Assembly (NCBI RefSeq): GCF_035917455.1
Contig: NZ_CP109078.1
Location: forward strand, 5,192,001-5,256,000
Length of the DNA stretch: 64,000 nucleotides
Reading direction: 5' to 3'
Source: Micromonospora sp. NBC_01796
GTDB taxonomy: Bacteria; Actinomycetota; Actinomycetes; Mycobacteriales; Micromonosporaceae
Part shown: positions 45,900-47,467 of the stretch, piece after piece
Layout: each line of letters opens with the position of its first letter
Position numbering within the stretch: the first letter of the stretch is position 1
Translations under genes and position numbers: made by a program
Notes under the pieces: generated by a model
Seen by the model: only the letters and a program-made list of their open reading frames with translations
The model's database searches: none
Told to the model about the DNA's origin: nothing

Positions 45900-45955
45900 G
45901 ATCTAGGGCATATGGTGGTGAGTTGATCTTTAGAAGCCACCATATGCCCTAGATC
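45900..45955. repeat. Perfect 19-bp inverted repeat between convergent genes (probable bidirectional terminator)
   Basis: Arms 45900-45918 and 45937-45955 are perfectly complementary (GATCTAGGGCATATGGTGG on the left) with an 18-nt A/T-rich loop. The element is 20 bp from the ABC stop and 18 bp from the rpsD stop. It resembles the hisF element in its GATCT start and TGGTG end. Confidence 0.85.
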
Positions 45956-45973: not shown

Positions 45974-46582
45974 TCAGCGGGAGTAGAACTCGACCACCAG
46001 CTGTTCGTCGCAGGTGACTGGGATCTCGCGGCGTAGCGGCGGGCGGATGACGGTTACGGTGAGGTCGGTGAGGCTGACCGACAGGTACGGGGCGGTTCGG
46101 TCACCGACGTGCGCACCGGCGGCGGCGAGCTGGAACGGCGGCTTCTGCAGGCTGCGCTCGCGTACCCGGATCGTCTGGCCGGGGCGCAGCCGGTAGGACG
46201 GGCGGTCGACCTTGACCCCGTCCACCGAGAAGTGCCCGTGCGCCACGAGCTGCCGGGCCTGGTAGATGGTGCGGGTCAGCCCGGCCCGGAGCACCACCGC
46301 GTCGAGGCGCCGCTCCAGCAGCGTGACCAGGTTCTCGCCGGTCTTGCCCTCGAGTCGTACGGCGTCGTCGAAGGCCCGCCGGAGCTGGGTCTCGCTGACG
46401 TTGTACTGGTGCCGCAGGCGCTGCTTCTCCAGCAGTCGTACCTGGTAGTCCGAGGTCTTGCGGCGTGAGCGCCCGTGCACGCCCGGCGGGTACGGCCGGC
46501 GCTCGAAGTACTTCACGCACTTGGGGGTGAGCGGGATGCCGAGGGCGCGGGAAATTCGGACCTTGGGTCTTGCCTGGTTCAC
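45974..46582 (-). CDS. rpsD: 30S ribosomal protein S4, stand-alone form
   Basis: A 202-residue S4 protein that nucleates 30S assembly by binding 16S rRNA. It opens MNQARPKVRISRALGIPLTPKCVKYFERRPYPPG, lacks the N-terminal zinc cysteine cluster (one Cys only) and has the S4 RNA-binding domain at about 92-155 (RRLDAVVLRAGLTRTIYQARQLVAHGHFSVDG). It matches the stand-alone Streptomyces-type S4 rather than the form encoded in the rpsM-rpsK-rpsD-rpoA operon. GTG 46582 has a GGGAG ribosome site. Two iron-box-like sites lie upstream in the space shared with the divergent DUF2470 gene. Confidence 0.93.
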   Translation of the reverse strand: MNQARPKVRISRALGIPLTPKCVKYFERRPYPPGVHGRSRRKTSDYQVRLLEKQRLRHQYNVSETQLRRAFDDAVRLEGKTGENLVTLLERRLDAVVLRAGLTRTIYQARQLVAHGHFSVDGVKVDRPSYRLRPGQTIRVRERSLQKPPFQLAAAGAHVGDRTAPYLSVSLTDLTVTVIRPPLRREIPVTCDEQLVVEFYSR

Positions 46583-46601
46583 GTGGACGTCTCCCGGGTT
46601 T

Positions 46602-46635
46602 GTAGGTTAGCCTGCCCTAACTTAGCCCACCCTAA
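46602..46635. promoter_or_regulatory. Tandem DtxR/IdeR-type iron boxes
   Basis: Box 1 (46602-46620), GTAGGTTAGCCTGCCCTAA, matches the IdeR consensus TTAGGTTAGGCTCACCTAA at 15 of 19 positions. Box 2 (46617-46635) matches at 12 of 19 and overlaps box 1. They lie between rpsD (minus) and the DUF2470 gene (plus), 20 bp from the rpsD start and 22 bp from the other. Confidence 0.6.
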
Positions 46636-46657
46636 TTCACCCGCCGGAGGTACGGTC

Positions 46658-47467
46658 ATGCAGCCCAGTCCCGCCGAGGTCGCCCGCACACTGGCGGCCG
46701 GTCGACTCGCCGGCACCGCCTACGTCGCCAACCACCCGGGGCCGCACCGCACCCGGCACGTCACCGACGCGCTCGGTCGGGTGTTGTTGCTGGTCTCGGT
46801 CGTCGACGACCTCGCACTCGCCCTGCGGCCGGAGCCCGGCACCGACGACACCGCGCTGGTGCTCGACGTACGCGACCTGCCGCCGGCCGCCGGCTCGCCG
46901 GCCCTGGGCCGGGTCTGGATCTCGGGCTGGGCCGCACTGCTCGAAGGTGCCGAGGCCCGGCAGGCGGCACTGGACTACGCCGACGTCGACCCGACCGGTG
47001 ACCTGCTCGACGTCGGCGGCCGGTTCGCCCTGTACCGGTTCGAGCCGGCCGAGGTCCGGTTGGAGCGGGACGCCGACACCATCCACATCGACCCGGCCGA
47101 GTACGGCGCCGCCGAACCGGACCCGCTGCACCACCTGGAGCGGGAACTCCTGGAGGACCTGGCCGACCACCACCAGTCGGAGATCGCCGAGTTCGTACTC
47201 CGGCAGCTCGGTGAATCCGCCGCCCGGCACCGGTCCGGGCCGTCGCCGCGCGTGGTCCGGCTCGACCGGTACGGCTTCGTGGTGATGCTCGGCGAACCGG
47301 GTTCCCGCTACCGCGCCCGGCTGGCCTTCCCCCGCCCGGTACGCGACCACGCCGACCTGGTCCAGCTGCTGCACCCGGTCCTCTGGCCGACCCGGCACGC
47401 CCCGATCGCCGGCCTGAGCCCGGCCGAGCCGAACTCGGCCGAAGCGAGCCCGGCCGGACCGAACTAG
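46658..47467 (+). CDS. DUF2470 / HugZ-like protein
   Basis: A 269-residue protein. The N-terminal part (about 1-140) resembles the split-barrel pyridoxamine-oxidase-like fold (ALRPEPGTDDTALVLDVRDLPP...GRVWISGWAALLEGAE). The C-terminal DUF2470 domain (about 150-255) reads PLHHLERELLEDLADHHQSEIAEFVLRQL...VVRLDRYGFVVMLG...ARLAFPRPVRDHADL. DUF2470 with a split barrel is typical of haem-utilisation HugZ proteins. Tandem iron boxes upstream agree with an iron role. Haem degradation itself is not shown. GGAGG precedes the ATG. The stop overlaps the convergent TetR gene (CTAG). Confidence 0.82.
   Translation: MQPSPAEVARTLAAGRLAGTAYVANHPGPHRTRHVTDALGRVLLLVSVVDDLALALRPEPGTDDTALVLDVRDLPPAAGSPALGRVWISGWAALLEGAEARQAALDYADVDPTGDLLDVGGRFALYRFEPAEVRLERDADTIHIDPAEYGAAEPDPLHHLERELLEDLADHHQSEIAEFVLRQLGESAARHRSGPSPRVVRLDRYGFVVMLGEPGSRYRARLAFPRPVRDHADLVQLLHPVLWPTRHAPIAGLSPAEPNSAEASPAGPN

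Follow-up and report, generated by a model that had tools for sequence, protein, structure and literature searches.

A predicted iron box between a cysteine-poor uS4 paralogue and a DUF2470 gene: a candidate iron-dependent exchange of uS4 in Actinomycetia

Why should a gene encoding a ribosomal protein share its promoter region with sites resembling the operators of iron-dependent repressors? The question is raised by a locus of Micromonospora sp. NBC_01796, a soil actinobacterium with a genome of 8.56 Mb, in which an rpsD gene and a divergently transcribed gene coding for a DUF2470 protein have their start codons only 75 bp apart. The locus lies in the window considered in the present work, i.e., the whole stretch of 64,000 nucleotides that was analysed; its features are listed in Table 1. 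The preliminary description of this DNA placed two iron-box sites in the gap between the two genes, and both were recovered exactly there; the first, counted at that time as 15/19, keeps its position, its score being recounted as 16/19.

Table 1. Features of the divergent S4/DUF2470 locus (window coordinates).
Feature	Position	Strand	Remark
Second rpsD, cysteine-poor (C-) uS4 paralogue	45974..46582	-	202 aa; GTG start (46582)
Divergent promoter region common to both genes	46583..46657	.	75 bp; gap between start codons
Iron box 1 (DtxR/IdeR/DmdR type), GTAGGTTAGCCTGCCCTAA	46602..46620	.	16/19 to consensus
Iron box 2, CTAACTTAGCCCACCCTAA	46617..46635	.	14/19 to consensus
DUF2470/HugZ-fold haem-binding-protein relative	46658..47467	+	269 aa; ATG start (46658)

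At the opposite end of the rpsD gene, where it converges with an ABC-transporter gene, a perfect inverted repeat (45903-45952) with CTAGGGCATATGGTGG arms of at least 16 bp lies between the two gene ends. These arms are the sole two occurrences of that sequence in the window at up to two mismatches, and the repeat looks like a putative bidirectional terminator of the two genes.

The sites were scored against TTAGGTTAGSCTAACCTAA, a 19-bp palindrome that we take to be the DtxR/IdeR consensus. Box 1 is the only place in the 64 kb with up to three mismatches to this sequence (mean 0.00 in 100 shuffles), and box 2 is offset from it by 15 bp, with an overlap of 4 bp. When the window was modelled as an order-1 Markov chain, 20 simulations yielded on average 0.25 sites of 13/19 per 64 kb, and a score of 14/19 or more was never reached. 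Probing the whole genome at up to three mismatches retrieved nine matches versus none for a reversed-pattern control; the nine represent eight distinct sites, since two of them are one site read in two registers. A chance origin of the box was rejected, the expected count being near zero in the shuffles, in the Markov model, and in the control. Moreover, all seven of the other distinct sites adjoin iron-uptake-type genes, in six regions, which indicates that the consensus marks genes of this type in this genome. They include FecCD permeases (one with a substrate-binding protein), siderophore-interacting proteins, and an HtaA protein (two sites); another boxed gene encodes a class-III aminotransferase (L009), presumably with a siderophore role. 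The genome harbors one DtxR-family regulator (PF02742, E 2.1e-26). According to these sequence data, the iron box is almost certainly a DtxR/IdeR-type operator.

A search for Zur boxes with a Zur consensus gave a best score of 10/15 in 36 S4 upstream regions. Control of the S4 paralogue by Zur was rejected on the basis of this result and of the available passages of PMC3087516, which report no Zur site near S4 paralogues.

The gene had been described as a plain ribosomal S4 gene. Its identity as S4 holds, as both the S4 N-terminal and the S4 domains are present and the protein reaches the NCBIfam rpsD cut-offs; what had been missed is that it is a second copy, another rpsD gene being located at C1:2010388-2011011. 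The product of the latter, 47% identical to the window S4, carries a CxxC...CxxxxC motif at its N terminus (C9, C12, C26, C31) and is referred to as the C+ form. The window S4 begins with VNQARPKVRISRALGIPLTPKCVKYFERRPYPPG; the ligand cysteines are gone, and one cysteine (C22) is found in the N-terminal region. The possibility that the window S4 is the sole S4 of the genome was rejected, since the C+ copy exists.

Among the 77 C+ S4 loci, the four-cysteine motif occurs in all 74 that were readable, and in all 74 the S11 motif lies on the same strand. The S11 motif adjoins the C+ copy, and the second S4 copy, without metal ligands, lies outside the ribosomal operon. Furthermore, the C+ S4 can be aligned from end to end with an S4 chain of 209 residues (1fka/1hnw group), which is presumably that of Thermus, with all four cysteines in register. 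An Fe4S4 cluster has been reported for Thermus uS4, in the available part of PMC10450194. By analogy, C9, C12, C26, and C31 of the C+ S4 probably hold an Fe-S cluster as well. The preliminary description had regarded iron control of a ribosomal protein as unexpected; this appears less so once the window S4 is recognised as the C- paralogue of a four-cysteine S4.

The sequence of the divergent protein matches Pfam DUF2470 with an E value of 0.0012 at residues 164-236, the score of 19.8 falling just under the curated cut-off of 22, so that membership is borderline by sequence alone. Its predicted structure (pLDDT 91.8) matches At3g03890 (6m0a), MSMEG_6519 (5bnc), and the glutamyl-tRNA-reductase-binding protein (4n7r) over about 250 columns, and, more weakly, Helicobacter pylori HugZ (3gas; E about 2e-4). 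A PNPOx-like split barrel and a DUF2470 domain can thus be recognised in the model through the structure match; the likeness to 5bnc, 6m0a, and 4n7r concerns the predicted fold, the identity with them being only about 17-22%. At five other loci (L105, L111, L117, L128, and L129) the divergent neighbour of S4 is a short DUF2470/HugZ-type protein of 146-159 aa, probably consisting of one domain only.

The distribution of the arrangement was checked in two main samples. The order-wide one comprises 61 genomes, 15 of which harbor an S4 at least 60% identical to that of the window; the class-wide one comprises 295 genomes, with 107 C- S4 places among the matches listed (best 10 candidates per genome). 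The main table embeds 95 loci from both samples and takes 83 of the 107 places (80 fetched, plus G000, G015, and G028). For each locus we scored the presence of a C+ copy in the genome, of an adjacent divergent DUF2470-like gene (by an iterated HMM), and of a box, by which we mean a site scoring 15/19 or better and lying no more than 250 bp upstream of the C- S4. Copy number was rechecked with the C+ S4 as a query in 80 genomes and in G004 and G010. L141, whose upstream region is incomplete, G328, and the other named loci, which were counted apart, stand outside this table; the same holds for the controls L146-L150, the main-type S4 of Amycolatopsis/Allokutzneria, whose best score is 9/19.

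In the class and order samples, the box was found upstream of the C- S4 in all 46 two-S4 genomes with an intact C- copy; these come from more than ten families, and their second S4 is in every case at least 71% identical to the C+ S4 of the window genome. In terms of the 95-locus table, a box was present at 44/44 two-S4 loci with an adjacent DUF2470-like gene, at both two-S4 loci without it, and at 16/16 single-S4 loci with it; none of the 33 single-S4 loci without a DUF2470-like gene is boxed. Taken by neighbour, 60/60 loci of the table with an adjacent DUF2470-like gene carry the box. Of the remaining 24 listed places, whose single-S4 state rests on the best 10 candidates per genome with no C+ query, one (L353) combines a 16/19 box with a DUF2470-like neighbour and 23 have neither, eight of the latter keeping remnants of 13-14/19. 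One genome of the class sample, G328, stands outside these counts: besides its C+ S4 it retains no more than a fragment of the C- form, at a locus that has no box (best 11/19).

A further set of 80 named genomes was inspected, including Micromonospora, Actinoplanes and relatives, Catenuloplanes, Dactylosporangium, Asanoa, Kineosporia, Klenkia, Modestobacter, Actinocorallia, Frankia, and others, Salinispora being absent from it. A box of at least 15/19 was detected at 73 of 74 testable C- loci, L100 having 13/19. The C+ copy was retrieved from 45 of the 50 genomes tested for it; the other five comprise three Kineosporia and one Sporichthya MAG, each with a single C- S4, and Amycolatopsis, the control with a main-type S4. 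A motif-free count points the same way: the 8-mer CTAACCTA occurs in 20/36 two-S4 upstream regions versus 0/32 boxless single-S4 regions, and the highest count reached by any 8-mer in 50 mononucleotide shuffles was five. Conservation in relatives had been proposed as a check on the boxes; with L100 as the only exception, all the sampled gene pairs keep one of at least 15/19.

As for the DUF2470 side, iron control of this gene had been considered reasonable, and this is well supported both by the boxed loci just described and by IdeR/DmdR1-like sites at related DUF2470 genes. As far as the available passages go, IdeR-dependent control is published for Rv3839, a DUF2470 gene of Mycobacterium tuberculosis (PMC13258150), and in Streptomyces griseus one such gene has a DmdR1-like motif before it (PMC8914203). 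The DUF2470 gene is, in all probability, under iron control.

Whether control is shared by the two genes or concerns one side had been left as a choice, and the informative cases are those in which no DUF2470-like gene adjoins S4. Three two-S4 lineages of this kind keep a box before S4. In Catelliglobosispora koreensis (L125), the upstream flank contains a TetR-type gene (58% identical) and two transporter genes (64% and 73%), as in the window, and the downstream flank an ABC exporter 73% identical to that of the window; the window DUF2470 protein, used as a query, did not retrieve any match at this locus. A tandem box (15/19 and 13/19) lies before S4 and overlaps the end of the TetR-type gene, and the C+ S4 was found in the same genome (G375). 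Judging from this gene order, Catelliglobosispora looks like a natural deletion of the DUF2470 gene. At L206 (G341) the order is a tRNA-Met gene, an 18/19 box, and S4; at L210 (G061) a 130-aa frame, not retrieved by the DUF2470-type HMM, occupies the divergent position. The permanence of the box with S4 at L125, L206, and L210 favours shared over one-sided control.

Tandem boxes, defined by a second site of at least 13/19 at 15, 16, or 20 bp, occur at 23/46 two-S4 loci versus 0/16 boxed single-S4 loci (Fisher p 0.00018, ignoring the kinship of the loci). The contrast is found in family f28 (12/12 two-S4 versus 0/5 boxed single-S4 loci) and not in genus g52, which we infer to be Streptomyces (0/5 versus 0/8); thus, the tandem signal is clade-limited. 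Taken together, the sequence data make it likely that the C- S4 is under the control of the iron box.

Single-S4 genomes deserve a separate consideration. In the 95-locus table, 33 of 49 single-S4 loci are without a box and 16 keep one, all with a DUF2470-like neighbour; these 16 boxes start about 36-76 bp upstream of S4, and L353 represents one more such case. An overlooked C+ copy in the 16 genomes was rejected on the basis of the C+ query and of the alignment of the alpha operon. The latter was aligned in ten single-S4 genomes (nine boxed, one boxless): the S11-side and rpoA-side pieces are 21-176 bp apart, and S4 is missing in 10/10, whereas in the two-S4 control G290 the alpha operon is intact. 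An alpha operon running from S11 to rpoA without S4 implies that the C+ gene is really gone in the ten aligned genomes. The idea that the box is tied purely to the two-S4 state was rejected as too simple, since 16 single-S4 genomes keep it.

An only S4 must be made at any iron level; hence, the box cannot act as a strict off-switch in these 16 genomes. They illustrate that S4 can be made under iron-rich conditions even with a box beside its gene; another S4 promoter may be used there, or the box may act on the DUF2470 gene only. On a tree of the C- S4 proteins (95 rows), considering independent pairs on well-supported branches, gain or loss of the box goes with DUF2470 in six of seven pairs (p 0.031) and with the presence of C+ in a median of three of five (p 0.25); the opposite direction was never observed, either for DUF2470 or for C+.

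In single-S4 genomes such as G297, G147, and G004, the stretch from S11 to rpoA lacks rpsD, and a C- S4 located elsewhere is the only copy found. From gene order and the S4 tree, it appears that the core rpsD is displaced by a once-accessory C- paralogue in several branches. Decaying remnants of 12-14/19 lie before the only S4, with no adjacent DUF2470-like gene, at L191, L200, L202, L228, and L229 (family f28) and at L361-L368.

In a sample of 396 genomes of the phylum, two S4 matches were retrieved from six genomes outside the class. Stretches were read from five of these six (G515 being outside), and only G719 harbors a box of at least 15/19. In G452, for which 5% contamination is listed, no box was found at the C- one of the two S4 matches (best 10/19), and the stretches read from G511, G534, and G610 contain no box of at least 13/19. 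G511 possesses two very similar S4 genes (L348, L349), neither of them with an iron box, whose cysteine pattern (HRTCRRVGEPLCGRPNCPSNKRPYPPG / HRMCRR...) is unusual. In G719 (G719:C1, L350; about 1392-1411 and 1486-2106), S4 retains the C+ framework, yet each of the four ligand cysteines is replaced; a 15/19 box lies about 75 bp upstream, and the divergent gene is unrelated, with no DUF2470 neighbour. An independent origin of the same S4 switch in another class is possible, and we regard it as a lead only.

On the whole, it seems rather probable from these sequence comparisons that the tandem DtxR/IdeR-type (DmdR) operator represses an iron-sparing pair made up of the C- S4 and the DUF2470 protein. 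When iron is sufficient, the iron-loaded repressor would sit on the boxes, keeping both genes silent or low, and ribosomes would be built with the main C+ S4, whose four cysteines would hold an Fe-S cluster. Under iron starvation, the repressor would leave the boxes and the C- S4 would be produced and take the place of the C+ form in the ribosome; needing no cluster, it would allow ribosome assembly to continue without iron expense. The DUF2470 protein, for its part, would handle or limit haem, so that the pair would save iron both in haem and in the ribosome. By analogy with Thermus, the replacement of an Fe-S S4 by the C- S4 in iron-starved ribosomes is plausible and, on balance, somewhat probable.

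The boxes might instead control the DUF2470 gene only, the S4 paralogue merely sharing the gap and being expressed independently of iron. This would account for the box at all 60 loci with an adjacent DUF2470-like gene, 16 of them single-S4, for the six of seven independent pairs in which box and DUF2470 change together, and for what the available passages report on Rv3839 (PMC13258150) and S. griseus (PMC8914203). It fits less well with the box kept before S4 at L125, L206, and L210, although these are few cases (three) in which adjacency alone was scored, with the lack of boxes at single-S4 loci without DUF2470 (0/33, plus 0/23 further), and with the confinement of tandem boxes to two-S4 loci. 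Furthermore, neither start codon of the window locus lies more than 40 bp from an end of box 1, so that a bound repressor should affect both genes. Control of the DUF2470 gene alone thus appears rather unlikely, while still deserving attention.

A different role for the C- S4, as a backup for zinc, oxidative, or cold stress, with zinc bound at the cysteine site of the C+ form, is improbable. Chen et al. (2009) do assign zinc to the C+ site and regard the Salinispora C- paralogues as part of a zinc economy (PMC3087516, available passages); against this, the same passages report no Zur site near S4 paralogues and the best score obtained here was 10/15, versus iron boxes in 46/46 genomes, and the Thermus site is reported as Fe4S4 in the part of PMC10450194 at hand. 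That the boxes are chance or relict sequences without function is extremely improbable. Relict boxes do exist, as the remnants of 12-14/19 at some single-S4 loci (L191, L200, L202, L228, and L229, with eight more of 13-14/19) indicate; however, the expected count is near zero, the boxes occur in 46/46 two-S4 genomes of more than ten families, and the same consensus marks iron-uptake-type genes elsewhere in the genome.

The iron-responsive S4 pair proposed here resembles the Zur-controlled C-/C+ pairs of Streptomyces, Mycobacterium, and Bacillus (S14, S18, L28, L31, L33, and others; PMC3087516, available passages), in which, as here, a ligand-free paralogue lies outside the ribosomal operon and has a metal-repressor operator. 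Unlike those pairs, the window locus has an iron box, an S4 site reported as Fe4S4 in Thermus, and a haem-related DUF2470-like partner. The C- S4 of Salinispora and Frankia, two genera whose C+ S4 is encoded within the alpha operon (PMC3087516, same passages), represents the same arrangement, and the Frankia loci L144 and L145 are boxed in our data. In those passages, Chen, Roberts, and Luthey-Schulten (2009) described the C+ and C- S4 forms; they looked for Zur sites, detected none in the vicinity of the S4 paralogues, and did not settle how these are controlled. Their study lists C- paralogues also in Clostridia, Planctomycetes, and Deltaproteobacteria; the word "iron" has no occurrence in the main text of PMC3087516. 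The Rv3839-Rv3840 operon of M. tuberculosis contains a DUF2470 gene induced by low iron via IdeR and linked to haem economy (PMC13258150, available part); its neighbours, Rv3840 and bfrB, differ from those of the window locus, and "ribosom" does not occur in that source.

No link of iron to paralogues of S4 or of other ribosomal proteins was found in the literature searched, a body that does not include subscription papers and preprints. S4 is not named in the main-text passages available for two DmdR1 papers (PMC12161575, PMC7174319), and the passages at hand of PMC12186496 discuss S4 mutations and not iron. In Corynebacterium diphtheriae, the main rpsD lies inside a predicted DtxR operon (PMC524172, available part); this is the alpha-operon gene and no paralogue. 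Zinc cases of ribosomal-protein switches are listed in the passages seen of PMC3087516.

What was already known are the C+ and C- forms of S4 and the zinc/Zur switches; what would be new is iron in place of zinc in a metal-responsive ribosomal-protein pair. To our knowledge, the metal-dependent ribosomal-protein switches known so far all answer to zinc. An IdeR-type exchange of an Fe-S uS4 for a cluster-free uS4 encoded in a divergon with a haem-economy gene, widespread in Actinomycetia and perhaps arisen a second time in another class, with the "zinc" site of S4 being physiologically an iron site, is in our opinion favoured by a narrow balance of probability.

The assembly of the 30S subunit requires S4 for its start, and accuracy too is affected by this protein; for this reason, iron-starved actinomycetes, antibiotic producers included, might translate with altered ribosomes. 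If the proposed exchange is true, the ribosomal Fe-S cluster would be a regulated iron expense and the cysteine site of bacterial S4 would be an iron site in vivo; this, in turn, would answer the question raised in 2009 of how the actinobacterial C- S4 paralogues are controlled.
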